DNA from: Gemmatimonadota bacterium | GTDB taxonomy: Bacteria > Gemmatimonadota > Gemmatimonadetes > Gemmatimonadales > Gemmatimonadaceae | NCBI GenBank assembly: GCA_021324775.1 | Contig: JAJPIM010000041.1 | Coordinates: 1-64,000 of the forward strand | DNA length: 64,000 nucleotides | Direction of reading: 5' to 3' | Shown here: positions 28,864 to 53,095 of the stretch, piece after piece | Layout of the letters: every line of letters begins with the position of its first letter | Position numbering within the stretch: position 1 is the stretch's first letter | Notes under the pieces: generated by a model | Databases searched by the model: none | The model's input: only the letters and a program-made list of their open reading frames with translations | What the model was told of the DNA's origin: nothing | Translations under genes and position numbers: made by a program

Positions 28864-29736
28864 GTGCCGGTCGCCGTCGGGCCCGCTCCGATCGCCAGGG
28901 CGGTGCCGCCGGAGTCCGGGTCCGCGCCGCGGGTGTACCGCCGCCACCGTGGGTGGCGGATGCTCGATCTGCGCGAGCTCTGGGAGTTCCGCGAGCTCCT
29001 GTACTTTCTCGTCTGGCGCGACGTCAAAGTGCGATACAAGCAGACCGTCCTGGGAGCGCTCTGGGCGGTGCTGCAGCCTGCGCTGTTCATGGTCGTGTTC
29101 ACTCTGATCTTCGGCCGGCTGGCGCATCTGCCGAGCGATGGCGTCGCGTATCCGGTGTTCGTGTATGCGGGGCTGTTGCCGTGGACGTTCTTTGCGACGA
29201 CGGTGGCGATGTCGTCGACGAGCCTCGTCAACAGCGCGAACCTGATCACGAAGATCTACTTCCCCCGCATGATCGTGCCCCTGGCCGCGGTCGGCGTGGG
29301 CCTCGTGGATCTCGCCGTGGCTTCGGTGCTCATGGCCGGGCTGCTGGCGTGGTATCATGTGGCGCTGACGCCCCTGCTCCTGCTCGCGCCCGTGTTTACG
29401 CTGGGCGTGATGCTGGCGGCGATCGGCATCGGGGCCCTGCTGGCGGCCCTCACCGTGACGTACCGCGATTTCCGCTACATCGTACCCTTTGCCGTGCAAC
29501 TCTGGATGTATGCGACACCCGTCGTGTACGCGGCGAGTTCGGTGCCGGAGCGGTGGCGCGTTCCCTTCGCGATGAACCCCATGACGGGGATGACGGACGG
29601 GTTTCGCGCATCGATGCTCGGGCGGCCACCGTCCTGGGATCTGGTCGTGATTTCGGCGGTCGCGGTCTGCCTTTCACTGGTGGCGGGCATCGCGTACTTC
29701 CAGCGCGTCGAGAGGCGGTTCGTCGATGTCGTCTAG
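28864..29736 (+). CDS. wzm: ABC-2 polysaccharide export permease (Wzm-like)
   Basis: The 290-residue protein has six predicted membrane helices after a soluble N-terminus. The segment LREL...FRELLYFLVWRDVKVRYKQT before the first helix, together with GALWAVLQPALFMVVF and LPWTFFATTVA, is diagnostic of the Wzm/TagG/KpsM exporter family. With the adjacent ATPase it should flip or secrete a lipid-linked polysaccharide across the inner membrane. The GTG at 28864, one base after the wecA stop, is chosen because the frame before it overlaps wecA. Its end overlaps the ATPase gene by 11 bases. Confidence 0.93.
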   Translation: MPVAVGPAPIARAVPPESGSAPRVYRRHRGWRMLDLRELWEFRELLYFLVWRDVKVRYKQTVLGALWAVLQPALFMVVFTLIFGRLAHLPSDGVAYPVFVYAGLLPWTFFATTVAMSSTSLVNSANLITKIYFPRMIVPLAAVGVGLVDLAVASVLMAGLLAWYHVALTPLLLLAPVFTLGVMLAAIGIGALLAALTVTYRDFRYIVPFAVQLWMYATPVVYAASSVPERWRVPFAMNPMTGMTDGFRASMLGRPPSWDLVVISAVAVCLSLVAGIAYFQRVERRFVDVV

Positions 29737-31051
29737 CGCCACCGGCGGCCCCGTCATCGTCGTCGAGCACCTGACCAAGGAGTACGTGCTCGGCGCTCGC
29801 GTGCGGGGCTATACGACGTTTCGTGAGGCGGCGGTGACGGCGGTCAGTGCTCCGCTGCGACGCGCGTGGCGGCTGGCGCGGGGCGGAACGGAAGCCCGGA
29901 GCCGCCCGTTTCACGCGCTCGACGACATCTCGTTCTCGATCGACGCTGGGACCGTCGTCGGTATCGTCGGCCGGAACGGCGCGGGGAAGAGCACCCTGTT
30001 GCGCGCACTCAGCCGGATCACCGAGCCAACCTCCGGGACGATCGCCATTCGCGGACGAGTCGCCAGCCTGCTCGAGGTGGGGACCGGGTTCCACCCCGAG
30101 CTGACCGGCCGCGAGAACGTCTACCTCAATGGATCGCTCCTCGGGATGCGGCGTTCCGAGATCACGCGGAAGTTCGACGAGATCGTGGCATTCTCCGAGG
30201 TCGAGTCCTTTCTCGATACGCCGGTCAAGCGATACTCATCGGGGATGTACGTCCGGCTGGCTTTCGCGGTCGCCGCGCACCTCGAGCCGGAGATCCTGAT
30301 GGTGGACGAGATCCTTGCCGTCGGCGACGCGGCGTTTCAGCAGAAGTGTCTCGGCAAGATGCAGGACGTCGGGCGCGGGGGCCGCACTGTCCTGTTCGTG
30401 AGCCACAACATGGCTGCGATCTCTCGGTTGTGCTCGCGAGGGCTGCTGCTGCGCCATGGCCGTCTCGCCTTCGATGGACCGACGCTCGAAGCCGTCACGC
30501 AGTACCTGGCGGACGAGCAGCGACCTGACTCGCTCCGTTGGGAGACGGCGGCGCTGCCGCGCCGTCTCGATGAGTATGGCGAGCTGGCGAGACTAACGGT
30601 GGTCGAGGTACGGCCGGCCGCGGAAGGGAAATCGGGGTTTCGCTTCGGCGAGGATCTCCGTCTGCGTCTGACCTTCGCCGCGATGAGCAACATCCATAGC
30701 GCGGCGATCGGCGTCGGCATCGATGATCTGTACGGCAACCGGATCGTGACGTTCAACAGCGATGAAGCGGGCGTGATCATGGCCGCCGGCCGCAACAACA
30801 CCTATACCGTCGACCTCTGTGTGCCCAACCCGGTGCTCAACCCGGGTCGCTATGCGGTCTCGTGCGCGGTGTTGTCGGGGGCCCGGATCCTCGATTTCCT
30901 GCCGCAAGCCGGATATTTCGATGTGCAGCCCATCCGGCGCGACACCGGTGAGCATTTCGAGCCGACGGCCGGGGCTGGCCCAGTGCGGCTTGCATGCACG
31001 TGGGAGATCCATCCGGCCGCCGCCCCGCTGGTCTCCGCGGCCGTCTCGTGA
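29726..31051 (+). CDS. wzt: ABC transporter ATPase with C-terminal Wzt-like carbohydrate-recognition domain
   Basis: The 441-residue ATPase has Walker A GRNGAGKST (residues about 82-90), signature RYSSGMYVRLAFA, Walker B ILMVDEILAVGD and switch His in FVSHNMAAI. Compared with simple TagH-type ATPases, about 150 residues follow the nucleotide-binding domain. They form a beta-rich domain (LARLTVVEVRPAAEG, RFGEDLRLRLTF, AIGVGIDDLYGNRIVTFNSD) like the Wzt C-terminal domain, which recognises the finished or capped glycan end. This suggests that export here is checked for a terminal modification. The stop overlaps the next gene's GTG by 4 bases. Confidence 0.94.
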   Translation: MSSSATGGPVIVVEHLTKEYVLGARVRGYTTFREAAVTAVSAPLRRAWRLARGGTEARSRPFHALDDISFSIDAGTVVGIVGRNGAGKSTLLRALSRITEPTSGTIAIRGRVASLLEVGTGFHPELTGRENVYLNGSLLGMRRSEITRKFDEIVAFSEVESFLDTPVKRYSSGMYVRLAFAVAAHLEPEILMVDEILAVGDAAFQQKCLGKMQDVGRGGRTVLFVSHNMAAISRLCSRGLLLRHGRLAFDGPTLEAVTQYLADEQRPDSLRWETAALPRRLDEYGELARLTVVEVRPAAEGKSGFRFGEDLRLRLTFAAMSNIHSAAIGVGIDDLYGNRIVTFNSDEAGVIMAAGRNNTYTVDLCVPNPVLNPGRYAVSCAVLSGARILDFLPQAGYFDVQPIRRDTGEHFEPTAGAGPVRLACTWEIHPAAAPLVSAAVS

Positions 31052-33134: not shown

Positions 33135-34174
33135 CCCCGCCGGCAGGGAAGGGACAGCCGCGCCAAGCGGAACCGCGAACCACTGCCACATCCGGCATCG
33201 CCGGCCAGACGGTGCTGATCACCGGCGGGACGGGGTCGTTCGGCAACCGCGTCGCGTCCCATCTCAGCGCCCTCGGGCCGCGGCGAATCCGCATCTTCAG
33301 CCGCGATGAGAAAAAACAGTGGGAGATGCAGCAGCGCCTGCCGGATTTCGAGTACATCATCGGGGACGTGCGGGATCCAGAGCGCCTCCGCAGCGCGCTA
33401 CGCGGCGTCGATCTCGTCTTTCACGCGGCCGCGCTCAAGCAGGTGCCGTCCTGCGAGGCCTATCCGTACGAGGCGTTCCAGACGAACACGGTCGGCTCGC
33501 ACAACCTGTGTGAGGCCGCGCTGCGGGCGGGTGTGCGGACGGTGGTCGCGCTCAGCACCGACAAGGCAGTCAAGCCGGTGAACGCCATGGGCATGTCCAA
33601 GGCGATGATGGAGAAGATCGTGTGCTCGCGGAACCAGGTTCCGCTCGACACCCGATTCTGCTGCGTTCGCTACGGCAACGTGATGGGAAGCCGCGGATCG
33701 GTCATACCGCTGTTCCGGAAGCAGATCGAGGCGGGCGGCCCGATCACGATAACGGTCGGCCACATGACGCGGTTCCTGATGACGCTCGACGAGTCAGTCG
33801 ACCTCGTGGTCCACGCGATGAGCCACGCCATGGGCGGTGAGATCTTCGTCCGGAAGGCGCCGGCCGCAACGATCGCCGATCTCGCGCGGGCGCTCATCGC
33901 GAAGTACGGCGATGGCGCGGACGTCGCGATCCGCACCGTCGGGATCAGGCCCGGCGAGAAGATCGACGAGGTGCTGGTCAACGAATACGAGCTGCGGCGT
34001 GCCGAGGAGACGGACGAGTATTTCACGATCCACCCGGAATACCGTGTCCCGGCCGGTACGGTGCACTACCCGGTCGGTACGGAGTACACCTCGGCGAATA
34101 CGCGGCGGCTCACCAGCTCCGAGGAGATCGGGGCACTTCTCGACCGCGTGGGGCTCGTCGAGTACTACATCTAG
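33131..34174 (+). CDS. fnlA: UDP-GlcNAc 4,6-dehydratase / 5-epimerase, WbjB/FnlA/CapE-like
   Basis: The 347-residue extended SDR protein has the NAD(P)-binding VLITGGTGSFGNRVASHL, then FSRDEKKQWEM, VFHAAALKQVPSCEAYPYEA and TDKAVKPVNAMGMSKAMMEK, in which Met replaces the usual SDR tyrosine as in WbjB/CapE. RYGNVMGSRGSVIPLF, GGEIFVRKAPAATI and GIRPGEKIDEVL complete the match. WbjB-type enzymes convert UDP-GlcNAc into UDP-4-keto-6-deoxy sugars of the L series, the first step towards UDP-L-FucNAc or UDP-L-QuiNAc. A 25-residue disordered N-terminal extension precedes the core. The RmlD-like reductase follows immediately. Confidence 0.88.
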   Translation: MTPPAGKGQPRQAEPRTTATSGIAGQTVLITGGTGSFGNRVASHLSALGPRRIRIFSRDEKKQWEMQQRLPDFEYIIGDVRDPERLRSALRGVDLVFHAAALKQVPSCEAYPYEAFQTNTVGSHNLCEAALRAGVRTVVALSTDKAVKPVNAMGMSKAMMEKIVCSRNQVPLDTRFCCVRYGNVMGSRGSVIPLFRKQIEAGGPITITVGHMTRFLMTLDESVDLVVHAMSHAMGGEIFVRKAPAATIADLARALIAKYGDGADVAIRTVGIRPGEKIDEVLVNEYELRRAEETDEYFTIHPEYRVPAGTVHYPVGTEYTSANTRRLTSSEEIGALLDRVGLVEYYI

Positions 34175-34250: not shown

Positions 34251-35078
34251 GTGAGCGACGCCCGGCGACGGCTGTTCGTACTCGGTCACCGCGGCATGCT
34301 CGGCCACGTGGTGGCGCGCTATGCGGCGGGCGCGGGGTACGAGGTTGTGACGGCGGACGTGCGCTACGAGGGAGGGCCGGCGGATCGTCTCGTCGCCGCG
34401 GTGCGCGACTCCGGGGCGGCGGTCGTCATCAACTGCCTCGGTCTCACGAAGCAGCGCAGCGATGACCCGCCGGCGCTCTACCTCGCCAACGCGCTCTTCC
34501 CGGTCCATCTCGCGACGGAGCTGGATGCCTCGCAGTACATCGTACACGCCAGTACCGACTGTGTCTTCGCCGGTGTCCGCGGAGGGTACCGCATCGATGA
34601 TCCGCTCGACGCCGCGGACGCGTACGGTTTTTCGAAGGCTCTCGGCGAAAGCATCACCCGATATCCCAACGCGACCGTGCTGCGCGTGTCGGTGATCGGG
34701 CCGGACCGCGGGGATGGTCATGGGCTGCTCGCGTGGTTTTTGCGCCAGCCGCCGGACCGCCCTGTGCCTGGCTACACTAACCATCGCTGGAACGGCATCA
34801 CCACTCTTGACTGGGCAGCTATCGCGCTCGAATGCGCAGCGGCCCGTGCGCGGGGAGAGCCCGTCGCGTCGTTGATCCAGCCGGGCACCCCGGTGGTGAC
34901 GAAGTACGAGCTGCTGTGCGCGTTTCGCGATCTGTACGCGCCGCATCTCACGGTTGCCGAGGCGGCCGGTGCCGAGGCCGTGGACCGGTCGCTCATCCCG
35001 AGCGATGCACGGCCCCCGATCCGCGAGCAACTCGAACGGCTCGGCGCGTGGTATCCCGTGCCAGCCAAGACCGGGTGA
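34251..35078 (+). CDS. RmlD-like NAD(P)-dependent sugar-4-keto reductase
   Basis: The 275-residue short-chain reductase has the nucleotide-binding LFVLGHRGMLGHVVARYA, VVINCLGLTKQ, HASTDCVFAGVRGGYRIDD and the catalytic YGFSKALGE (YxxxK). RmlD-like proteins next to a WbjB-type dehydratase act as the 4-keto reductase (WbvR/CapF-type step) in making UDP-L-QuiNAc or UDP-L-FucNAc precursors. This protein has only the reductase part and lacks the extra cupin domain of CapF, so WbvR/UDP-L-RhaNAc formation is slightly favoured. The GTG at 34251 gives the family start after a 76-base gap, the largest within this part of the locus. Confidence 0.82.
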   Translation: MSDARRRLFVLGHRGMLGHVVARYAAGAGYEVVTADVRYEGGPADRLVAAVRDSGAAVVINCLGLTKQRSDDPPALYLANALFPVHLATELDASQYIVHASTDCVFAGVRGGYRIDDPLDAADAYGFSKALGESITRYPNATVLRVSVIGPDRGDGHGLLAWFLRQPPDRPVPGYTNHRWNGITTLDWAAIALECAAARARGEPVASLIQPGTPVVTKYELLCAFRDLYAPHLTVAEAAGAEAVDRSLIPSDARPPIREQLERLGAWYPVPAKTG

Positions 35079-37546
35079 TGACCGTGCGCTCCAGCGGCCG
35101 CGTGAGCACCCGAGCGGGACGCCGGCGGATCGTCATCCTCACCGAGGATTCAAAACCGGCATTGGGCGGGATCGCCGAATACCTCCACGAACTGGCGCTC
35201 GCGACATCCGAGACGCACGACGTGCTCGTGGTGACGAGCGTGCCCGGAGCCGAGGCGCTCAACCCCGGCCTGCCGTTTCGCTATCGCGAAGTCGCGTGGT
35301 TCCGCCAGGCGCAATCTCGCCGCGGAGATGGGTTCATGCCGATGCGGCGCATGAACACGCTGGTCTGGCACCTCGGCCGCCGGCGCCGGGTGCGCCGGTT
35401 GCTCGCCGGCATCCACGCCGAGCACCCCAACTCAGCCTACGTGCTGGGCCGGATGAGTCCCGTGACGCATCCCTGGTATGTCGCGTGCGGCGATCTGGGC
35501 CTCGAGTTTGCCGGCATTGCGTACGGGCTCGAACTGGTCGAGGCGCTCGCGCCCGCGTGGGCGAGACGACGCGTGGACATGGTCGCCGCGGCGACGCACT
35601 GGTTCGCCATCAGCCGCGACACGGCGTCCAAGCTCGCGGCGATGGGGGTGTCCGAGTCGCGTCAGAGCTTGCTCTTGCCCGGCGTCGTCATGCCGCGTCC
35701 GGCGGACGCAGATGACCAGAGCCGGCGTGGCGTCCGTGAGCGCCTGGGGTTGGGGGATGACCCATTCGTGTTGTCACTCTGCCACCTGCGGCACCGAAAG
35801 GGGATCGACCTCGCGATCGAGGCGTTCGCCGCCGTTGCGGCGGAGTTCCCCGCGCTCCGCTACGTCGCCGCAGGGGCCGGGCCGGAGCGCGACGCGCTCG
35901 CAGCGCTGGCGCGGTCCGCCGGGGTCGCCGGCCGCGTCGTGTTCACCGGTGCGATCGACGAAGCGACGAAGGCGGCCCTGTTTGCCGAATGCGAATTCTT
36001 CATTCTTCCGACCCGGACCGAGGCCCATGACGTCGAGGGCTTCGGCATCGTGTATCTGGAAGCGGGATCGTACGGCAAGGCGGTCATCGGCGGCGCGACC
36101 GGCGGCGTGGCGGAAGCGATTGCGGACGGAGTGACGGGCATGCTCGTGGACACGCGGGACTCGGCGGGCCTTTCGCACGCCATGCGCGATCTCCTTCGAG
36201 ACCCATCGCGGCGCGGCGAGATGGGACGACGGGGCGCCGAGCGGGCGTGCAGCGACTTCGCCTGGCCCGCGCGTGGTCGCGCATTTGCGGCGAGAATCGA
36301 CGAGATCTCCGATGACCGGCATCGGGATACGCCGGTGAGCACGCCGTCAGCGTCCGCGGCAGACCGGGTGCGCCGGCAGATGGGAAGCGCGAGCAACCGG
36401 ACGTTGGCAGCGGCCGACGTGCTGGGCATTCTGGCGCGCCGGGGACGCCTGGCTACCTATTTGTCATCAGGTGTCGTCATTGCCGAGCGGGATGCCTGTT
36501 CCCGGGCGATCATGGCGTGGGTACAGCGCGCGATCGAAGGGGGCGGTGGCGAGGGTGCCTCGGCACGGTATCACGTCACCAGCGGGTGGGCGGGCGCGTA
36601 TCCCGAGATTACGGGCTATCTCATCTCGACGCTGCTGCACTACGCCACCGCATGGAACGACCCCGAATTGGCAGACGCCGCGGCGCGAGCCGGAGATTGG
36701 CTGGCGCGCACACGGATCGCCGGCGGCGCGATCTGCCGGAAACAATGGTATCCGGGCAATTCGACCCCGAGCGTGTTCAACACGGCGCAGGTCGTGGAAG
36801 GCTGGTGTGCGCTGGCGCGCGCCCGGAACATCGATGGCGTGGCGGCCGCCGCGTGGACTGAGCTGGCGCGCGAGTCCGGGGACTGGCTTCTGCGGGAGCA
36901 GGATGCCAGCGGGATCTGGATCCGGCACGCATTCAACGGCATCCCGCACACGTATTACGCGCGGGTCGCCGCGCCGCTCGTGCGACTGGCGGAATTGACT
37001 GGCGACGATCGGTACGCAGCGGCGGCACGGCGGGCGCTCGACTGGGTGCTCGCGCAGCAGCAGTCCTCGGGGTGGTTCCGGTCGGCGGGGTTCACTGCCA
37101 CAGAGGCGCCGACTACCCACACGATCGGTTATGTCCTCGAGGGGCTGTTGCAGGCCGGCGGGCTGCTGGGCGACACGCGGTACACCGGCGCAGCGGAGCG
37201 GGCGGCGCGGGCGCTCCGCAATCTCTTCGGCCTTCGCGGCCGGCTGCCGGGCCGGCTATCCAGCGACTGGCGCCCGCGCGCGCGGTGGCGCTGTCTGACC
37301 GGCGAGGCGCAGGTCGCCATCTCGTGGTGCCTGCTCGCGAGGTCGACGGGCGACACCAGGTACCGGCAGGCGGCGGAGTCGGTCGCCGAGTCCTTGCAAC
37401 GCCGCGTGCGGATCTTCGAGGCGTGGCCGGAGATTTCCGGTGCCATCCCGGGGTCGTCACCCCCGTGGGGCGAATACGACCCCTTCGGCTATCCCACGCA
37501 CGCCGCGAAGTTCACGCTCGATCTCTTCGCCCTGCTGCCGGCATGA
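35078..37546 (+). CDS. Glycosyltransferase family 4 fused to an (alpha/alpha)-toroid domain
   Basis: The 822-residue two-domain protein has residues 20-405 as a complete GT4 enzyme: LGGIAEYLHELALA near the N-terminus, LSLCHLRHRKGIDLAIEAF, VVFTGAIDEATKAALFAE and the donor-binding EGFGIVYLEAGSYGKAVIGG. After a linker, residues 430-822 form repeated helix pairs (AARAGDWLARTRI, ARESGDWLLREQDASGIW, AARRALDWVLAQQQSSGWF). Toroid-like motifs HVTSGWAGAYPEITGYL and TIGYVLEGLLQAG resemble six-hairpin, AGE or C5-epimerase-like barrels. The second domain may modify or bind the glycan being built. Start TGATG overlaps the previous stop, and the end overlaps the next gene by 4 bases, so the fusion is not obviously an artefact. 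Confidence 0.82.
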   Translation: MTVRSSGRVSTRAGRRRIVILTEDSKPALGGIAEYLHELALATSETHDVLVVTSVPGAEALNPGLPFRYREVAWFRQAQSRRGDGFMPMRRMNTLVWHLGRRRRVRRLLAGIHAEHPNSAYVLGRMSPVTHPWYVACGDLGLEFAGIAYGLELVEALAPAWARRRVDMVAAATHWFAISRDTASKLAAMGVSESRQSLLLPGVVMPRPADADDQSRRGVRERLGLGDDPFVLSLCHLRHRKGIDLAIEAFAAVAAEFPALRYVAAGAGPERDALAALARSAGVAGRVVFTGAIDEATKAALFAECEFFILPTRTEAHDVEGFGIVYLEAGSYGKAVIGGATGGVAEAIADGVTGMLVDTRDSAGLSHAMRDLLRDPSRRGEMGRRGAERACSDFAWPARGRAFAARIDEISDDRHRDTPVSTPSASAADRVRRQMGSASNRTLAAADVLGILARRGRLATYLSSGVVIAERDACSRAIMAWVQRAIEGGGGEGASARYHVTSGWAGAYPEITGYLISTLLHYATAWNDPELADAAARAGDWLARTRIAGGAICRKQWYPGNSTPSVFNTAQVVEGWCALARARNIDGVAAAAWTELARESGDWLLREQDASGIWIRHAFNGIPHTYYARVAAPLVRLAELTGDDRYAAAARRALDWVLAQQQSSGWFRSAGFTATEAPTTHTIGYVLEGLLQAGGLLGDTRYTGAAERAARALRNLFGLRGRLPGRLSSDWRPRARWRCLTGEAQVAISWCLLARSTGDTRYRQAAESVAESLQRRVRIFEAWPEISGAIPGSSPPWGEYDPFGYPTHAAKFTLDLFALLPA

Positions 37547-38973
37547 GCCTGCCCGTCAGCGAGAGCCCGGTACCGGCCACGCCGCTGCGCGTACTCCTCA
37601 TCGCGTTCGAGTTTGCGCCGCTGGGCGCCGGGGGCGTGCAGCGCGTGATGGGACTCGCCCGGGGGCTTCCGGCGTGCGGGATCGATCTCGACGTCGTGAC
37701 GGTGCAGGCGGAGGATCTGGCACTCTGGTCAGGCGCTCCGGTGGATGCCACACTTCTCAGGGCGCTTCCGGAGAGCGTGCGGGTGCACCGCATACCGAGC
37801 GGCTTCCCGCCCTGGTACTGGTCGCTGACGCGGGGACGCGCGGGATTTCGCGTGGCCCAGTACTCCCACTGGGGCGATCCTGTCTCGTTGTTCTGGCGGC
37901 GGCCGTTGCTGGAGCAACTCGACGCGCTGGTGGCAGAGCGGCGCCCGGACGTGCTGCTGGCCACGGCACCGCCGTTCGGTGTCGCGGTGCTCGGCCGCAT
38001 CGCCGCACGGCGGTACCGGCTGCCGTGGGTGGCCGACATGCGGGATGCCTGGTCGCGCTGGTGTGTGGCCCCGTATCCCACCATCGCACACTACCTGTAC
38101 GCCCGGACCCACGAGCGCGCGGTCCTCAAGAGCGCGAACGTCGCGGTGGCGACATCGCACGTGACTCGCGGGCAGTGGCTCGCGGACACACCCTCACTGT
38201 CGCCCGGGCGCATGGTGACGATCTACAACGGGTACGACGCAGCAATGGTGCCGGCATTCGCGGCGAGGCGCAGCGTCCCCGAAGGCTCTGCGGAGGCCGA
38301 TCTCCGTCACGTGGTGTATGCGGGCAGTTTCTACTATACGCCGGACGCGCGGGCGGCCACGTTTCGTCCGATCTGGCGGCGGTCCCCGCAACACTGGCTG
38401 CACTACCGCCTGCGCCGCGAGGACTGGCTGTACCGGTCGCCCTATTTCTTTTTGCGTGGCATCCAGCGCCTCCGGGTCGTGCACCCCGAACTGGCGCGCC
38501 GGCTGCGCGTGACGTTCCTGGGCCGGGTGCCGCCCTGGCTGCCGCCGATGCTTGCCGAGACCGAAACCGCGGATGTGGTGTCGACGCCGGGCCCCGTGCC
38601 GCACGCCGAGGCGCTGCGGCTGGAACGACAGGCCGACGCCCTGCTGTTGACGTCCGCCAAGGTGGTGGGCGGCCGCGACTACAGTATCGCGGGCAAGGTC
38701 TATGAATACTTCGCGGCCGGCGTTCCGATCCTGGCGTTGCTGACGGATGGCGCGATGCGCGATCTGGTGTCGGAGTCCGGGCTCGGACTGCTGGCGGATC
38801 CGGACGACAGCGACGCGGTGGCGGAGGTCCTGGCACGCGTGATCGCCGCTCCCGATCCGCGGCGTCTCGTGGAACCGAACGAGCCGTTCATCGCGCAGTT
38901 CGAGCACCGGCTGATGGCGGAGCGCATGGCGGACTGCCTGCGAAGGGCTGCCGCGGAGGGGTATCGCGGATGA
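37543..38973 (+). CDS. Glycosyltransferase, GT4-like
   Basis: The 476-residue protein has an N-terminal GT-B domain with RVLLIAFEFAPLGAGGVQRV, the glycine-rich acceptor loop of GT4 enzymes, and LPWVADMRDAWSRWC, where the D-R-D-W string is common in GT4 relatives. The C-terminal donor domain has HVVYAGSFYYTPDAR, VTFLGRVPPWL and SIAGKVYEYFAAGVPILALL. A 60-residue insertion (about residues 280-330) containing HYRLRREDWLYRSPYFFL is unusual. ATGA overlaps on both sides place it firmly in the operon. Sugar specificity is unknown. Confidence 0.85.
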   Translation: MSLPVSESPVPATPLRVLLIAFEFAPLGAGGVQRVMGLARGLPACGIDLDVVTVQAEDLALWSGAPVDATLLRALPESVRVHRIPSGFPPWYWSLTRGRAGFRVAQYSHWGDPVSLFWRRPLLEQLDALVAERRPDVLLATAPPFGVAVLGRIAARRYRLPWVADMRDAWSRWCVAPYPTIAHYLYARTHERAVLKSANVAVATSHVTRGQWLADTPSLSPGRMVTIYNGYDAAMVPAFAARRSVPEGSAEADLRHVVYAGSFYYTPDARAATFRPIWRRSPQHWLHYRLRREDWLYRSPYFFLRGIQRLRVVHPELARRLRVTFLGRVPPWLPPMLAETETADVVSTPGPVPHAEALRLERQADALLLTSAKVVGGRDYSIAGKVYEYFAAGVPILALLTDGAMRDLVSESGLGLLADPDDSDAVAEVLARVIAAPDPRRLVEPNEPFIAQFEHRLMAERMADCLRRAAAEGYRG

Positions 38974-41653: not shown

Positions 41654-42917
41654 GCGGCTTCGGACGCCGGACAGCGGGCAGCCGGTACCGGCTGCGCCGG
41701 TGACGTCGCTCGTCGTTCGCACCCCGATCCGGATCGGCGTTCTGGCGACGCATCCCATCCAGTACCACGCGCCGCTCTACCGCGTGCTGGGATCGACGCC
41801 GGGCGTGGACCTGACCGTGTACTTCGCGCACAAGCCGACGAGCGTGGAACAGGGGATCGGGTACGGCGTACCGTTCGCGTGGGATCTGGACCTGACCGAT
41901 GGCTACCGGCACGTCTGGCTCCGTAACGAAGCGGATGCGCGCCGCACCGAGTCCGGCGCACCGTTCCGCGACCGGCCGCGCGACTATGACACGCCGGAAA
42001 TCGCGACGCGCATCGCGCGCGAGCGCTTCGACGCCTTCATGCTCACCGGGTGGCGGACGCGGTCCGACTGGCAGGCGATGCGCGCGTGCGAGGCAACCGG
42101 GACGCCGATGATCGTGCGCGGCGATTCTCAACTGCGCGACGACTCTTTCGGGAAGCGCGTGCTCAAGCGTCTCATGTATCGCCGGCTGCTGCGCCGGTTC
42201 GAGGCGTGTCTCAGCGTGGGAGAGCGCAGCGCGGAGTATTTCCGGTACTATGGCGCCCGGCGGATCATCCCGGCCCCGCACTTCATTGACAACGCCGCGT
42301 TCGCCGAGCGGGCGGTCGTCGCCCGCGCGCGCCGCGAGACGACCCGTCATCGGTGGGGCATCAACCGTACGTCAATGGTGGTGCTGTTCGCAGGCAAGCT
42401 GATTCCCCGCAAACGCCCGCTCGACCTCATTCGCGCCGTGCGGGGGCTGCTCGGGATCCATCTCATCATCGTTGGCGACGGTGAGTTGAAAGGCGAATGC
42501 CGGCGCCAGACTAGCCGGTTCAGCATACCGTCGACGTTCACGGGATTCCTCAACCAGACGGCGATCACCGACGCCTACGCGTCGGCCGATGTGCTCGTCC
42601 TGCCGTCCGGGCGCCACGAGACATGGGGCCTGGTCGTCAATGAAGCGATGGCCAGCGGCTTACCGGCGGTAGTGTCGGACTCTGCGGGGTGTGTCCCCGA
42701 TCTCATCCGCGATGGTGAGACCGGATATTCGTTTGCCGAAGGCGATACCGACGACCTGCGGCAGATCCTGACGTACCTGGTGGATCATCCGGGTGAGACA
42801 GCCCGCATGGGACAGGCGGCGAGCGCGCGCGTCGCCTCATACTCGCCGGCGGCGGCGGCGGCGGGCGTATTGTCGGCCGCCGAGGCGGCAGCCGGGAGAG
42901 CGCCGTGGCCGTCGTAG
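41634..42917 (+). CDS. Glycosyltransferase family 4
   Basis: The 427-residue protein has RIGVLATHPIQYHAPLYRVL and VYFAHKPTSVEQGIGYGVPF, which are typical of a GT4 branch found in capsule and O-antigen loci, then FDAFMLTGWRTRSDWQA and VRGDSQLRDDSF. The second domain contains VVLFAGKLIPRKRPLDLIRA, FLNQTAITDAYASADVLVLP and ETWGLVVNEAMASGLPAVVS, the E(x7)E donor motif. All expected parts of a working GT4 enzyme are present. A GTG at 41634 overlapping the previous gene is used; GTG 41701 region codons would shorten it by about 23 non-conserved residues. Confidence 0.9.
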   Translation: MTAQPPERLRTPDSGQPVPAAPVTSLVVRTPIRIGVLATHPIQYHAPLYRVLGSTPGVDLTVYFAHKPTSVEQGIGYGVPFAWDLDLTDGYRHVWLRNEADARRTESGAPFRDRPRDYDTPEIATRIARERFDAFMLTGWRTRSDWQAMRACEATGTPMIVRGDSQLRDDSFGKRVLKRLMYRRLLRRFEACLSVGERSAEYFRYYGARRIIPAPHFIDNAAFAERAVVARARRETTRHRWGINRTSMVVLFAGKLIPRKRPLDLIRAVRGLLGIHLIIVGDGELKGECRRQTSRFSIPSTFTGFLNQTAITDAYASADVLVLPSGRHETWGLVVNEAMASGLPAVVSDSAGCVPDLIRDGETGYSFAEGDTDDLRQILTYLVDHPGETARMGQAASARVASYSPAAAAAGVLSAAEAAAGRAPWPS

Positions 42918-44422
42918 TGTCCGGCGAAGCAACCGTCGCGGCCGCCGGGGCGCCGACGGCCGCGAACACGATCGAGCTGCCCCGCGCAACCGGCATCCCG
43001 ATCGTCCAGGGACAGTGGTACTTCGTCCAGGAGTCCCGGTGGCTGCTCATCATCACGCTCGCGGTGATCGTCCCGTGCGCCGCATTCGCCGGGTATGAGC
43101 ACGATTCTGTCTGGATCGGAGCTGGTCTCGCGCTGACCGTACTCATCGGGCTTCATACGGCGTTTGCGGTATCATCGGTACCGTGGATCCCGGGACTGAT
43201 CATCCTGGTGGCAGCGCTCCAGTGGGTCCTGGGGCCGTGGGCAGCCTATCACGTCACCCCGCTGCTCCCGACATTCGCGATGGCGGTGCAGGCGCCGGAC
43301 TACTTCAGCTATGCGGTGCCCGCGACGCTGCTCCTCGCGCTGGGCGTGTATCTCCCGCTGTGGCGGATCGGCCGGCGGCCGGTGCAACGAACGGCGCCGT
43401 CGATGCCCACCGACTTCGTGCGCACGTGCGACATCATGGTCGTCGTCGGGATCGGCGCCAGCATCATTCAGAACACGCCGCTGCCGGTGTCCCTGCAGTA
43501 CCTGATGCTCCTCGTCGGGTACCTCGGGTTCGTCGGGGCCTTCGGGCTGCTCCTGGCGCGCGCGCCTGGATGGGGATGGCGGCTGGCGGCCGTACTGGCG
43601 CTGCGGGCAGTGCTGACGTCGAGCGACGGCATGTTCCACGATCTCCTGCTCTGGATCGCTTACACCGGCACGTTGCTCGGCTTCGTCTATCGCTGGCGCG
43701 TGCGCACGCTCGCCGTGCTGGCGACGGCCGCGCTGCTGGCGATGGGCATGCTCAACGAGTTGAAGATCGCCTACCGGATCGAGATCGAGGAGAACGCCGA
43801 CATGGGGTTGGCCGAGCGCGCCACCATCCTCGGCGACGCGATGGCGGATCAGTTCCACCAGCCAACGTCGGCGTTCCACGATCTTGGCTTGTCTCACACT
43901 GTGGCGCGCATCAATCAGGGCTGGATCATCTCCCGGACGCTCAACTGGGTACCGGCGCGCGAGCCTTTCGCACGCGGCGAGACGCTCATGACGGCGATCC
44001 GCGCCGCCCTGCTGCCGCGCTTCCTCGATCCGGGTAAGTACACGGCCGGCGGATACTGGTACTTCGAGCGGTTCACCGGCCTGTCGATGCGGCAGACGAG
44101 CATGAATCTCAGCGTCGCCGGGGAGATGTACGCCAACTTCGGACGGAACGGCGGTCTGGTTGGCGTCTTCGGATTCGGGATCCTGCTGGGGCTCGTGTAC
44201 CGGGTGTTCGCGCGGTGGGCCCTCGAGAACCCGCTGTGGTGGGCGTGGGCCCCCTACGTGATGCTCTACACGATGCAGGCGGAGAACGGAATCGGCGAAG
44301 CCGTCAACCACGTCGTCAAATCGGCGTTCGTCATGGTGGCCTTCATGTCAGTCGTCCCGGCGTGGGCCGTGCTGCGACAATGGCATCTGCGGCGGCTCTT
44401 CCGCCGGGCAGTTCCCACGTGA
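42905..44422 (+). CDS. Polytopic membrane protein, O-antigen polymerase (Wzy)-like
   Basis: The 505-residue protein has about ten to eleven membrane helices (WLLIITLAVIVPCAAFAG, GAGLALTVLIGLHTAFAV, VPWIPGLIILVAALQWVL and others). A larger soluble loop around residues 290-400 contains FHDLGLSHTVARINQGWI and WYFERFTGLSMRQTSMNLSVAGEMYANFG. This general shape, with a big periplasmic loop and late NFGRNGGLVGVFGFGILLGL, is that of Wzy-type polymerases and related O-antigen ligases. Sequence identity in such families is low, so the function is inferred. A polymerase would normally pair with Wzx flipping, whereas this locus has an ABC exporter. Confidence 0.6.
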   Translation: MAVVVSGEATVAAAGAPTAANTIELPRATGIPIVQGQWYFVQESRWLLIITLAVIVPCAAFAGYEHDSVWIGAGLALTVLIGLHTAFAVSSVPWIPGLIILVAALQWVLGPWAAYHVTPLLPTFAMAVQAPDYFSYAVPATLLLALGVYLPLWRIGRRPVQRTAPSMPTDFVRTCDIMVVVGIGASIIQNTPLPVSLQYLMLLVGYLGFVGAFGLLLARAPGWGWRLAAVLALRAVLTSSDGMFHDLLLWIAYTGTLLGFVYRWRVRTLAVLATAALLAMGMLNELKIAYRIEIEENADMGLAERATILGDAMADQFHQPTSAFHDLGLSHTVARINQGWIISRTLNWVPAREPFARGETLMTAIRAALLPRFLDPGKYTAGGYWYFERFTGLSMRQTSMNLSVAGEMYANFGRNGGLVGVFGFGILLGLVYRVFARWALENPLWWAWAPYVMLYTMQAENGIGEAVNHVVKSAFVMVAFMSVVPAWAVLRQWHLRRLFRRAVPT

Positions 44423-49605: not shown

Positions 49606-50962
49606 CCAGCACTACGCGCCCGACGTCGCTTCGACGGGCCAGCATCTCACGGATCTCGCCGAGTATCTATCGGCGGCGGGTGTGCCGGTCGAGGTGGTGA
49701 CTGGGCGCGCGCATTACGCCGGCGGCGTGCTCGACGCGCCTCCTACCGAAGTCCGGGACGGCGTGCGAATCCGCCGGTATCGGACCGCGGGACTTGGCCG
49801 GCGGTCGCGTGCGGGCCGGATCTTCGACTACGCGATGTTCTACGGGCAGGTGGCGTGGACATCGTGGATGGGCGAAGCCGCGGACGGCACCGTCTACCTG
49901 ACGACGCCGCCGCTGCTGGGCGTGATCGGCTGGATCGGCAAAGTGGCCAGAGGGCGCCGTTATGGGATCTGGTCGATGGATCTGCATCCCGACGCCGAAG
50001 TCGCGGCTGGGATGCTGCGGCGGGGCAGCGTCCTGTCGCGAGTCCTCAACTGGCTCAACGATCGCGGGTACCGGCACGCCGACTTCATCGTCGATCTCGG
50101 CCCCTACATGCGGAAACGGATCCTGTCCAAGGGCGTCCGTTCCGACAGAGTCGCCACGGTACCGGTTTGGGGTGCCGCACCCGAGGAGAGCCCCGCAGTT
50201 GCCGCGACGGGTGCTTCGATGCGCGCGCGGCTCGGCCTCGAGCCGGCCACGGTGGTGATGTACTCCGGCAACGCGGGCGTCGTGCACGAGTTCGGCCCGA
50301 TTCTGGAAGCGATGCGGCTCATGCGCGACGAGCGCGACATCCATTTCGTCTTTGCTGGCGGGGGTCCACGGCGCGCCGAGATCGAGGCGTACGCTCGCAC
50401 GCATGCGCTCCGGAACTTCACCTACCTCGACTATGTGGCGCGCGAGGACCTCGCCGGGATGCTCGCCGCGGCCGATGTGCATCTCATCTCGCTCCGAAGC
50501 GCGTTCGCGGGCATCTCGGTGCCCGGGAAGCTGTATGGCATCATGGCGGCCGCCCGTCCAGCGCTGTTCGTCGGGCCGGCCGCCTGCGAGACCGCCGACA
50601 CGATCCGCTCGGCGGACTGCGGGGAGATCGTCGATCCCGGAATCGGTGATGCGGCGAGCCGCGTGGCGGCCGCGATTCGCGCCTGGCGCGCGAATCCCGA
50701 CGCTGCCCGGGCAGCGGGAGCACGCGGATTGGCCGCGTACACGTCGCGGTATCAGCGCGGCCCCAACTGTGCGGCCTTTGCCCGGGTCATCGAGCATGCG
50801 TGGCCGAGCATGTTCACCACATTCACGCGGACCGCGCCGCACACGGGCGTTACGGCGTCCGTGGCGACGGAGACGGCGACCACCGCGGGTGCAGATGCGG
50901 GCGAGTCCGCGGATGCGTCTCGTGATCTACCATTCGCGGCCGCGGGGGTGCCGTCCGCATGA
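49589..50962 (+). CDS. Glycosyltransferase family 4, WcaI/WbuB-like
   Basis: The 457-residue protein has FVNQHYAPDVASTGQHLTDL at the start, a hallmark of WcaI/WbuB-type GT4 enzymes, then VEVVTGRAHYAGG, YGIWSMDLHPDAEVAAGML and FIVDLGPYMRKRI. The donor domain has VVMYSGNAGVVHEFGPILEA, IHFVFAGGGPRRAEIEAYA, FTYLDYVAREDLAGMLAAAD and FAGISVPGKLYGIMAAARPAL. The start is a TTG (49589), since no ATG or GTG gives the conserved N-terminus; the frame is open upstream inside the epimerase gene. The last 60 residues are a Thr/Ala-rich tail. WbuB adds L-FucNAc in E. coli, which would fit the FnlA-like gene, but that link is only suggestive. Confidence 0.85.
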   Translation: MLRFVNQHYAPDVASTGQHLTDLAEYLSAAGVPVEVVTGRAHYAGGVLDAPPTEVRDGVRIRRYRTAGLGRRSRAGRIFDYAMFYGQVAWTSWMGEAADGTVYLTTPPLLGVIGWIGKVARGRRYGIWSMDLHPDAEVAAGMLRRGSVLSRVLNWLNDRGYRHADFIVDLGPYMRKRILSKGVRSDRVATVPVWGAAPEESPAVAATGASMRARLGLEPATVVMYSGNAGVVHEFGPILEAMRLMRDERDIHFVFAGGGPRRAEIEAYARTHALRNFTYLDYVAREDLAGMLAAADVHLISLRSAFAGISVPGKLYGIMAAARPALFVGPAACETADTIRSADCGEIVDPGIGDAASRVAAAIRAWRANPDAARAAGARGLAAYTSRYQRGPNCAAFARVIEHAWPSMFTTFTRTAPHTGVTASVATETATTAGADAGESADASRDLPFAAAGVPSA

Positions 50963-52020
50963 AGATCCTGCACGTGGTTGGCGCGCGACCGAACTTCCCG
51001 AAGCTCGCCCCGGTGTATCGGGCCGCGCGCGTGGCGGGGCTGGACCAGATCGTGATGCACACGGGCCAGCACTACGATGACGCGATGTCCGACGCGTTCT
51101 TCCGCGATCTCGGCATCCGGCCGCCCGATGTCAATCTCGGAGTCGGGTCGGGGACGCACGGCCAGCAGACCGCGCGCATCATGGAGCGGATCGAGCCCGA
51201 GCTGGTGAAGCATCAGCCGGACTGGGTGGTCGTCTACGGCGACGTCAACTCCACCGCGGCCGCGGCGCTGGTCGCGGTCAAGCTCGGACAGCGCGTGGCG
51301 CACGTCGAGGCGGGGGTACGCAGCAATGACCGGTCGATGCCTGAGGAGATCAACCGGATCGTGGTGGACCGTCTTGCCGATCTCCTGCTCACCCCATCGC
51401 GTACCGCGGACGCGACGTTGCGTGCCGAGGGTGAGCCGGCGTCAGAGATCGCGTTCGTGGGGAACGTGATGGTGGATGCGCTGCTGTTCGCGGTGGAGCG
51501 TGCCCGGGTGACCGGTGCTCGCAAACGCGTGGGCGTGGAGAACGGGAAAGCGGTCGTGGTGACGCTGCACCGCCCGGCGAACGTGGACAACCTCCTCCGT
51601 CTCGAAGGGATCATGCGGGCGTTGCGGGTGGTGGCAGCCGATCGGCCCGTCCTGTTCCCCGTGCATCCCCGCACCCGCACGCGGCTCGACGCGGCCGGCA
51701 TCGACGCCGGGAAAGTGAAACTGATGGAGCCGGTCGGGTATCTCGAGATGCTCGATCTGATGGATGCGGCGCACGCCGTGGTCACCGATTCCGGGGGGTT
51801 GCAGGTAGAGAGTGCGGCGCTCGGCGTGCCCTGTCTGACGGTGCGGGATACGACCGAGTGGCCGGAGACGGTTACGTGTGGCGCGAACCGGCTCGTCTTC
51901 GACCCGGTGGGCCTGCCCGCGGCGGTGGCATCGGTTCGCCGGCTCGCGCAGGCGCCGCGCCCCGAGGGGTGGGACGGGATGGCGGCGGTGCGTGTGGTCG
52001 ACTGTCTGCGGACTCGCTGA
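50959..52020 (+). CDS. wecB: UDP-GlcNAc 2-epimerase family (WecB-like), copy 1
   Basis: The 353-residue protein has the non-hydrolysing 2-epimerase pattern: VVGARPNFPKLAPVY, HTGQHYDDAMSD, WVVVYGDVNSTAAAALVA and HVEAGVRSNDRSMPEEINR, then VTLHRPANVDN. The late block TDSGGLQVESAALGVP replaces the common GLQEEA acidic pair with VES, and TTEWPETV replaces TERPE. These differences from copy 2 suggest a different substrate, possibly the 2-epimerisation that completes UDP-L-FucNAc or UDP-L-QuiNAc; this is inference. ATGA overlap with the preceding gene. A 22-base gap separates it from copy 2. Confidence 0.88.
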   Translation: MKILHVVGARPNFPKLAPVYRAARVAGLDQIVMHTGQHYDDAMSDAFFRDLGIRPPDVNLGVGSGTHGQQTARIMERIEPELVKHQPDWVVVYGDVNSTAAAALVAVKLGQRVAHVEAGVRSNDRSMPEEINRIVVDRLADLLLTPSRTADATLRAEGEPASEIAFVGNVMVDALLFAVERARVTGARKRVGVENGKAVVVTLHRPANVDNLLRLEGIMRALRVVAADRPVLFPVHPRTRTRLDAAGIDAGKVKLMEPVGYLEMLDLMDAAHAVVTDSGGLQVESAALGVPCLTVRDTTEWPETVTCGANRLVFDPVGLPAAVASVRRLAQAPRPEGWDGMAAVRVVDCLRTR

Positions 52021-52042
52021 TCGCGGCTCCGGCCCCGCACGC

Positions 52043-53095
52043 ATGCGCCTCCTCCACGTCGTCGGCGCGCGGCCCAACATTCCGAAGCTGGCACCCGTGT
52101 ACCGGGCCGCGGCCGCGCGCCGCGCGGACCAGATCGTGGTACACACGGGACAGCACTACGACGACGCGTTGTCGGCGTCGTTCTTCCGCGACCTCGAGCT
52201 GCCGCCGCCCGACATCAATCTCGATGTGGGATCGCACACGCATGCCGTGCAGACGGCGCGGATCCTGGAGCGGCTCGAGCCGATCGTGGTGGCCGAGCAC
52301 CCGGATTGGGTGGTGGTGTACGGCGACGTGAACTCGACACTGGCCGCGGTGCTGGTGGCGGCGAAGCTGGGTGTGCCGAGCGCGCATGTGGAGGCGGGGC
52401 TCCGGAGCGGGGACCGGGGGATGCCGGAGGAGATCAACCGGATCATTGCCGACCGGCTGGCCTCGCGGCTGTTCACGCCGTCGCGTGACGCTGACGAGAT
52501 CTTGAGGCGGGAGGGGGAGCCCGAGGACAAGATCGTCTTCGCGGGCAACGTGATGATCGACAGCGTGCTGCACGCGTTGCCGAGGGCGCGCGTGCTGGAG
52601 CCGCGGTGGCGGGGAACGGACCGGCCGGTGGTCGTGACCTTGCACCGTCCGTCGAATGTGGATGATCCGCGGCGGCTCGCGGCGCTGGCGGAGGCGCTGG
52701 TCGCGGTCTCGGCGGATCGGCAGGTCGTGTTCCCGGCGCATCCACGGACGCAGGAGCGCATGCGGGCGGGCGGCGTGTCGATGCCGGGCGTGACCGTGAT
52801 TCCGCCGCTGGGCTATCTGGAGATGCTGGCGCTGGTGGATGGCGCGCATGCGGTGATCACGGATTCCGGCGGCTTGCAGGAAGAGACGACGGTGCTGGGC
52901 GTGCCGTGTTTCACCGTGCGCGCGACGACGGAGCGGCCAGTGACGGTGCGCGAGGGGACGAACGTGATCGTGCGGAATCCGTCCGAGATTCCGGCGGGCG
53001 TGCGAGCGGCGCGACGGCGGGTGAACCCGCCGCGGCCGGAGGGATGGGATGGGCGGGCCGGGGAGCGGGTGGTGGCGGGGCTGGGAGTGATATAG
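52043..53095 (+). CDS. wecB: UDP-GlcNAc 2-epimerase (WecB), copy 2
   Basis: The 350-residue protein is a close paralogue of the preceding gene, matching it block by block (LLHVVGARPNIPKLAPVYRA, HTGQHYDDALSASFF, VYGDVNSTLAAVLVAAKLG, HVEAGLRSGDRGMPEEINR). It keeps the canonical GGLQEETTVLG and TERPVTV segment, so interconversion of UDP-GlcNAc and UDP-ManNAc is the best guess. The ATG at 52043 gives the family N-terminus; the frame is open upstream without similarity. It is the last gene of the polysaccharide run: the next gene is unrelated and 92 bases away. No clear terminator hairpin was seen directly after it. Confidence 0.92.
   Translation: MRLLHVVGARPNIPKLAPVYRAAAARRADQIVVHTGQHYDDALSASFFRDLELPPPDINLDVGSHTHAVQTARILERLEPIVVAEHPDWVVVYGDVNSTLAAVLVAAKLGVPSAHVEAGLRSGDRGMPEEINRIIADRLASRLFTPSRDADEILRREGEPEDKIVFAGNVMIDSVLHALPRARVLEPRWRGTDRPVVVTLHRPSNVDDPRRLAALAEALVAVSADRQVVFPAHPRTQERMRAGGVSMPGVTVIPPLGYLEMLALVDGAHAVITDSGGLQEETTVLGVPCFTVRATTERPVTVREGTNVIVRNPSEIPAGVRAARRRVNPPRPEGWDGRAGERVVAGLGVI

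Follow-up and report, generated by a model that had tools for sequence, protein, structure and literature searches.

A family 4 glycosyltransferase fused to a predicted (alpha/alpha)6 barrel with invariant residues in a Gemmatimonadota polysaccharide cluster

Glycoside hydrolase (GH) family GH94 adopts the (alpha/alpha)6 barrel fold. In cyclic beta-1,2-glucan synthase, GH94 is fused to a glycosyltransferase (GT) of family GT84 and is reported to control chain length (PMC3960220). A further point of comparison is Agl32 from Halobacterium salinarum, described as a D-glucuronyl C5-epimerase of lipid-linked glycans that is predicted to form a single helical domain, whose catalytic residues are not known and whose nearest structures are cellobiose 2-epimerase and other enzymes of the AGE family (PMC13308652). 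The same glycan is acted on by the sulfatase-like sulfotransferases Agl30 and Agl31 (PMC11980604), and related literature includes AglQ (PMC3827465), PMC4335974, and PMC12102758. Here we analyze a gene (35078-37546, forward strand) in a stretch of 64,000 nucleotides (the window) from contig JAJPIM010000041.1 of a Gemmatimonadota bacterium (GCA_021324775.1), which encodes a GT4 glycosyltransferase joined to a predicted (alpha/alpha)6 barrel, also called a toroid. As in cyclic beta-1,2-glucan synthase, a glycosyltransferase and a domain that may act on its glycan product would share one chain; in contrast to the GT84-GH94 pair, the partners here are GT4 and a barrel without an assigned Pfam family.

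Judged from the genome sequences, the GT4-barrel fusion is real and has one origin. The gene is a single open frame of 822 residues with no internal stops, and the third-position GC content of this frame tops that of the other frames in every 300-base step, with a narrower lead near the junction (0.75 versus 0.66 and 0.69). In a survey of 395 genomes of the phylum (E 0.001, own genome counted), the barrel was found in 36 and the fusion in four, namely our own genome, G104, G107, and G328, comprising 3/3 of the genus. All are single-frame fusions, and the identity of their barrels to that of the window is 74% (G104), 57% (G107), and 58% (G328). In the tree, these fusions group as a single clade (support 100/100) whose stem is long (1.03). 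Since G104, G107, and G328 carry the same single-frame fusion, an assembly or frameshift artefact was ruled out. A search with the GT4 part alone (E 1e-40) returned the same four genomes and one more, in which an open frame of 408 matches with 38% identity along 260 residues. The earlier note, made from the sequence without database searches, had proposed a GT4 enzyme joined in one frame to a domain of repeated helix pairs, and this is borne out by the 822-residue open reading frame (ORF), the PF00534 match, and the six-hairpin model; homologues of the barrel are mostly separate proteins, and the fusion is kept in all four genomes of the clade, so the fusion view stands.

The GT4 domain (35078-36331, forward strand; residues 1-418, an end that we chose within the linker) scores over the cut-off for PF00534 and PF13692. 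The PF00534 (Glycos_transf_1) match covers residues 221-388 (E 1.3e-33, 116.4 bits against a cut-off of 26.4). RHRKG is found at residue 238, and an EX7E motif, EGFGIVYLE (residues 320-328; 36035-36061, forward strand), which we take to be the GT4 catalytic motif, has a match in each of the four fusions. No Pfam or NCBIfam family scores above cut-off in the C-terminal 404 residues. The full-length AlphaFold2 (AF2) model, built on a shallow alignment, has a mean predicted local distance difference test (pLDDT) value of 57.9 and is confident in the C-terminal domain only, with values below 50 at residues 1-211, 234-242, and 307-444, so that a GT-B fold of two Rossmann domains can only be presumed for the GT4 part.

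Modeling residues 443-822 alone (36404-37543, forward strand; AF2 model m71a5b9fe80ff, seven-row alignment) gave a mean pLDDT of 87.1 and a predicted TM-score (pTM) of 0.89, with 12 main helices arranged as six helical hairpins. Together with the fold matches, this model confirmed the predicted six-hairpin (alpha/alpha)6 barrel, for which the earlier note had suggested structure prediction and a fold search as checks. The 50 VIA-align matches listed have Z scores of 27.0-33.6 over 290-343 residues, and many of them are known (alpha/alpha)6 enzymes; the leading one is 7tem, an exported protein with no stated function (Z 33.6, 324 residues, root-mean-square deviation (rmsd) 2.7). The top Foldseek match is a cellobiose 2-epimerase (E 8.3e-8, TM 0.67). 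Closure of the ring is derived not from coordinates but from the matches to known barrels, cellobiose 2-epimerase among them, which reach Z scores of about 30 along roughly 330 residues. Helical hairpin repeats are thus present as the earlier note had described, but the motif it gave for them, GWAGAYPEITGYL, occurs once, at residues 503-515. As many matches are closely scored, the modeled fold appears to favour no single barrel family, and a shared fold of this kind would not show a function.

The conservation alignment comprised 38 sequences, i.e., 34 members of the barrel family and four mini-barrels from virus contigs, with five divergent members excluded. Seventeen positions are identical in 38/38: W481, G493, Y508, P509, E510, G513, Y514, G550, F567, G575, Y626, H681, Y685, G689, C739, T741, and Q745; K811 is kept in 35/38 and D815 in 36/38. 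On the model, Y508-Y514, Y626, H681/Y685, and C739-Q745 map to the opening turns of inner helices 1, 3, 4, and 5, respectively. On the forward strand, the segment starting inner helix 1 is the YPExTGY motif (residues 508-514; 36599-36619), in which Y508, P509, E510, G513, and Y514 are the invariant positions; H681 and Y685 (37118-37132) mark the start of helix 4, and C739-x-T741 with Q745 (37292-37312) that of helix 5. Inner helix 2 contributes F567, N568 (aspartate in the virus rows), and T569, and inner helix 6 contributes K811, with D815 sitting two turns inside the latter helix. Enzymes with this type of fold have their active site at the starts of the inner helices. Because invariant polar residues lie there, which is not expected of a mere scaffold, enzymatic activity of the modeled barrel is very probable. 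Among the 38 sequences, no carboxylate other than E510 is invariant, and a set of one acid, one histidine, four tyrosines, and one cysteine seems to suit proton transfer, as by an epimerase or lyase, better than hydrolysis with two acids.

Compared with described barrel families, the domain resembles several in fold and none in sequence signature. The GH88 unsaturated glucuronyl hydrolases (1vd5, 2fv0, 3wiw) match it with Z 31.5-31.6 over 326-328 residues (rmsd 2.9-3.0), but the barrel scores only 11.2 bits with PF07470 against a cut-off of 26.6 and is without a second invariant acid. Cellobiose 2-epimerase and its AGE relatives (3vw5, 8wbu) match with Z 30.6 and 30.1 over 334 residues (cellobiose 2-epimerases in general, Z about 30 over 333-334), whereas PF07221 (GlcNAc_2-epim) is not among the barrel's matches up to E 1, and H681 is its sole invariant histidine among the 38 members, in contrast to the several catalytic histidines of the AGE enzymes, for which PMC13308652 gives the catalytic set H184, E187, H243, and H374. 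The model C5-epim_C (PF06662), representing D-glucuronyl C5-epimerases of the GlcE type, gives 11.2 bits for the window domain against a cut-off of 23.3, with no match at E 0.001 in its own genome. The likeness to AGE-type and uronyl-C5-epimerase-like barrels noted earlier therefore holds in that AGE epimerases and glucuronyl hydrolases are among the near folds, but does not extend to the C5-epim_C signature. For GH127 (PF07944), the window domain reaches 20.8 bits of the 24.9 needed, although six relatives pass the cut-off (L054, L055, L057, L059, L003, and the Halobellus protein, the last with 26.8 bits). A 24-member profile of the family also matches drimenyl and hopene cyclases (E 3e-9 to 3e-7), and SQHop_cyclase_C is above cut-off in L057 and L003; kinship to squalene cyclases was rejected and these matches were tentatively put down to a common helix-pair repeat, because the barrel loci are glycan clusters. 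AprG, another candidate relative, was set aside on a match of 27 residues only. The RefSeq entries named 'prenyltransferase/squalene oxidase repeat-containing protein' from Halobellus limi and Haladaptatus sp. are homologous across most of the barrel but, unlike the window protein, stand alone, and their name seems to reflect the helical repeats only.

We propose, at about even odds, that the fusion is bifunctional and both assembles and tailors a surface polysaccharide. In the proposed mechanism, GT4 would add an amino sugar to a lipid-linked glycan; the barrel would then convert the added residue or its neighbour, before further chain growth, by proton abstraction of the epimerase or lyase type via E510, H681, and the tyrosines, and the tethering of the two domains would ensure that every added residue is tailored. 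A tailoring step as such is, in our estimate, a toss-up, whereas epimerase or isomerase chemistry, our first guess for the barrel, is less likely than not. The coupling of sugar addition to modification, also raised in the earlier note, is plausible, and we infer modification from the conserved pocket together with the recurrent glycan-modifying partners of the family. Should this hold, one protein would both add a sugar and change it, which would explain the tailoring of a polymer at every repeat. The plan of a glycosyltransferase plus a barrel is already known from cyclic beta-1,2-glucan synthase, in other families; of wider interest is the barrel family itself, which has no name, and whose invariant residues and recurring partners stand out. 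It could be, with the balance of probability somewhat against, a group of glycan-tailoring enzymes not described before, whose (alpha/alpha)6 barrel would contain a new Glu/His/Tyr/Cys active site, occurring in bacteria, haloarchaea, and virus glycosylation cassettes beside a capsid gene, and captured twice as fusions, behind GT4 and before an N-formyltransferase. The window domain passes no Pfam or NCBIfam model that would represent such a family, and the label in RefSeq is a squalene-cyclase-like one; the invariant residues and the two separate fusions narrow the choice of mutants to a few that could be tested. Searches of the literature for the fusion and for barrel-formyltransferase pairs found no described protein combining GT4 and this barrel family. 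The novelty claimed earlier for the make-up thus holds for these two families, but not for the general plan of a glycosyltransferase plus a glycan-acting domain (PMC3960220).

The second type of fusion, in which the barrel precedes an N-formyltransferase, was found in five genomes (L043, L054, L055, L057, L059). Four were called by Pfam, and L043 by 92.6% identity to the formyltransferase part of L054, in the barrel's frame. The four included in the tree form one clade. In L003, a Terriglobales contig, the barrel gene adjoins a separate gene for a homologous formyltransferase (34% over 176 residues), and a heparinase-like gene lies two genes from the barrel. Further fusions considered in L039, L041, L042, and L049 were rejected, as their long N-terminal extensions have no Pfam match to E 0.01 and were taken as read-through ahead of the gene.

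Neighbouring genes were counted at 31 main-family loci with our own gene caller, several of the contigs ending near the barrel; excluded beforehand were the window, the divergent barrels (five), L002, which shares its contig with L050, and L043 and L045, whose ORFs are cut or broken. Genes resembling N-acetyltransferases of the FemAB/GNAT or AAC(3) type make up 15/110 of the genes within two positions of the barrel, compared to 1/207 further out. The Fisher p value of 7e-7 is a guide only, and the enrichment a lead rather than a test, because the families were picked after the neighbours had been seen. These 15 genes are spread over 14 loci, and 14 of them are above the Pfam cut-off; the remaining one, the second such gene in L065 (L065:1674-2699), reaches 18.0 of 22 bits, and that of L061 lies on the opposite strand and belongs to a different GNAT family. 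Altogether, an acyltransferase-type gene is fused to the barrel or lies at most two genes away in 20/31 loci: 14 with FemAB/GNAT or AAC(3) types, four formyltransferase fusions, the adjacent gene of L003, and L035. The 11 loci without such a partner are L034, L036, L037, L039, L042, L056, L064, L068, and the three other GT4 fusions (L050, L051, L052). Outside the count, L045 also has an AAC(3)-type neighbour. On the tree, the distribution of the FemAB/GNAT label requires no fewer than three changes on well supported branches, and so does that of AAC(3); the pairing of barrel and acyltransferase has therefore arisen or been lost repeatedly. In L035, a gene two positions from the barrel and on the other strand (L035:3774-5429) encodes a formyltransferase-polysaccharide deacetylase fusion of 552 residues, and genes for a formyltransferase and a polysaccharide deacetylase lie near the divergent barrel of L046. 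A single ORF with ATP-grasp and low-molecular-weight phosphatase domains adjoins the barrel gene in L063 (L063:6589-8406).

Relatives of the barrel also occur in Acidobacteriota, haloarchaea, and IMG/VR contigs. Stand-alone relatives are found on plasmids of Halobellus limi and Haladaptatus, the former sharing 36% identity with the window barrel across 344 residues. A sulfatase gene adjoins the Halobellus barrel and lies two genes from that of Haladaptatus, where a heparinase-like gene stands between the two; both stretches contain WecB and a nucleotide-sugar dehydrogenase, and in neither is an acyltransferase annotated alongside the barrel. The likeness to Agl32, compared by description and not by sequence, lies in a helical domain with AGE-type near folds and in company of the sulfatase type, a sulfatase gene being close to both haloarchaeal barrels and the sulfatase-like Agl30 and Agl31 acting on the glycan of Agl32; unlike the window protein, Agl32 has no GT fusion described in the excerpt of PMC13308652. 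The barrel family may thus bear on archaeal iduronic acid synthesis, for which PMC13308652 presents the catalytic residues as open; if Agl32 belonged to the family, the invariant residues would name those missing in the archaeal C5-epimerase. Eight IMG/VR contigs, several of them apparently near copies, carry barrel relatives. The four examined (L089, L090, L091, L092) encode mini-barrels of 246-283 residues with the same invariant residues. In L091, Pfam places a methyltransferase before the mini-barrel and a GT2 enzyme two genes after it, and similar glycosyltransferase-like and methyltransferase-like ORFs were recognized by eye in L089, L090, and L092. The cassette lies between the major head protein and the head-tail adaptor in L090 and L092, and from its gene content it looks like a capsid-side glycosylation cassette. 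PHROGs gave no match to the barrel, and INPHARED phage records none to the L091 mini-barrel.

The neighbours of the family, comprising the acyltransferase types, formyltransferase fusions, haloarchaeal sulfatases with WecB and nucleotide-sugar dehydrogenase, and the virus methyltransferase and GT2, are glycan-modifying genes and support a tailoring function, but other readings of the barrel have to be weighed. It could act as a glycoside hydrolase or phosphorylase, trimming the product or controlling its length as GH94 does in cyclic beta-1,2-glucan synthase, and many of its near solved folds are indeed GH88, GH105, and GH76 enzymes, beside epimerases; a GT-GH fusion with length control also exists (PMC3960220). 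We consider this unlikely, given that E510 is the sole invariant carboxylate and that no GH family model scores above cut-off for the window domain, even though GH127 does so for six relatives. GH88 and GH76 use two-acid mechanisms, and D815 (36/38), within inner helix 6, leaves a hydrolase conceivable. For 'measurement', the other role suggested for the barrel in the earlier note, no evidence was found. The acyltransferase-type partners lend themselves to a different explanation, by which the barrel, as a sugar N-deacylase or an enzyme of acyl transfer, would expose an amine that the formyl-, AAC(3)-type, and FemAB/GNAT transferases encoded nearby then acylate; in the fusion, it would deacylate the N-acetylhexosamine (HexNAc) added by GT4. 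Such transferases commonly act on amines, and the kinds that recur are unrelated to one another (FemAB/GNAT or AAC(3) in 14/31 loci, formyltransferase fusions in five loci, and the adjacent formyltransferase of L003); L035 encodes, close to the barrel, a fusion of formyltransferase and polysaccharide deacetylase, just as formyltransferases elsewhere are fused to the barrel itself, and the barrel holds an invariant cysteine, histidine, and glutamate. We nevertheless judge a deacylase quite improbable: L046 and L035 already possess a separate polysaccharide deacetylase, the haloarchaeal members have no acyltransferase annotated beside them, FemAB/GNAT enzymes may act on hydroxyls too, and we know of no barrel deacylase. 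A barrel without catalytic activity, serving as a glycan-binding module or as a ruler that holds the acceptor for GT4, is very unlikely in our view. The five divergent members (L044, L046, L047, L048, L049) have lost Y508, E510, and Y514, which indicates that activity may be lost within the family, and the reaction of the barrel is only inferred; yet the polar residues at the inner-helix starts are invariant from bacteria to haloarchaea and virus contigs, and also in the GT4-fused clade.

Several observations weigh against the bifunctional tailoring enzyme that we favour. The pocket is deduced from helix positions in the model and not measured on coordinates. The absence of Y508, E510, and Y514 from the divergent members lowers the count for E510 to 38/43 when these are added; they form a subclade nested within the main family, possibly an inactive or re-purposed branch. 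Among the matches listed, 7tem heads the fold list by 2 Z units, and it has no stated function. The Pfam scan detected neither AGE nor GlcE signatures in the window barrel. The stem of the GT4-fused branch is long (1.03), the barrel of this branch may have shifted in function, and the commonest partner of the family is missing from this branch: no acyltransferase-type gene lies beside the three other GT4 fusions, and no recurring acyltransferase kind is present among the 51 called genes of the window. Finally, a motif search of the called genes found no nucleotide-sugar dehydrogenase in the window (three are encoded elsewhere in the genome), and a uronic acid substrate is therefore without local support.

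The fusion gene lies in a polysaccharide cluster, in which the reductase, dehydratase, 2-epimerase, and exporter genes described below and the next glycosyltransferase gene are likewise on the forward strand, and inside a tight operon, since its 5' end overlaps the stop of an RmlD-like reductase gene and its own stop overlaps the ATG of the next glycosyltransferase gene. The reductase (34251-35078; PF04321 over cut-off) has homologues at the same position in L050 (75%), L051 (69%), and L052 (54%). Before it lies a gene resembling UDP-HexNAc 4,6-dehydratases of the PseB/FnlA type (33212-34174; PF02719 over cut-off), which is below both equivalog cut-offs (TIGR03589, 316.3 of 407.75 bits; TIGR04130, 304.8 of 730 bits) and has homologues in L050 of G104 (89%) and L051 of G107 (83%), but not in the short contig L052 of G328. 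Two tandem UDP-GlcNAc 2-epimerases of the WecB type (50959-53095) both exceed the TIGR00236 cut-off and perhaps serve two different UDP-amino sugars. Dehydratase, RmlD-type reductase, and 2-epimerase, taken together, point to a donor of the UDP-L-RhaNAc/QuiNAc or FucNAc type, and an amino sugar of this kind may well be what GT4 adds. A 505-residue protein (42905-44422), multi-pass membrane by eye and without a Pfam match to E 1e-4, is possibly a polymerase, and a NodU-like carbamoyltransferase scores below cut-off. The cluster also includes an ABC polysaccharide exporter (28960-31051) composed of a permease and an ATPase with a Wzt_C domain (PF01061, PF00005, and PF14524 over cut-off). Five further glycosyltransferase genes are above the Pfam cut-off, and three have NCBIfam matches below cut-off. 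The glycosyltransferase following the fusion (37543-38973; PF13579 and PF13692 over cut-off) has homologues in L050 (76%), L051 (58%), and L052 (57%, in two pieces there).

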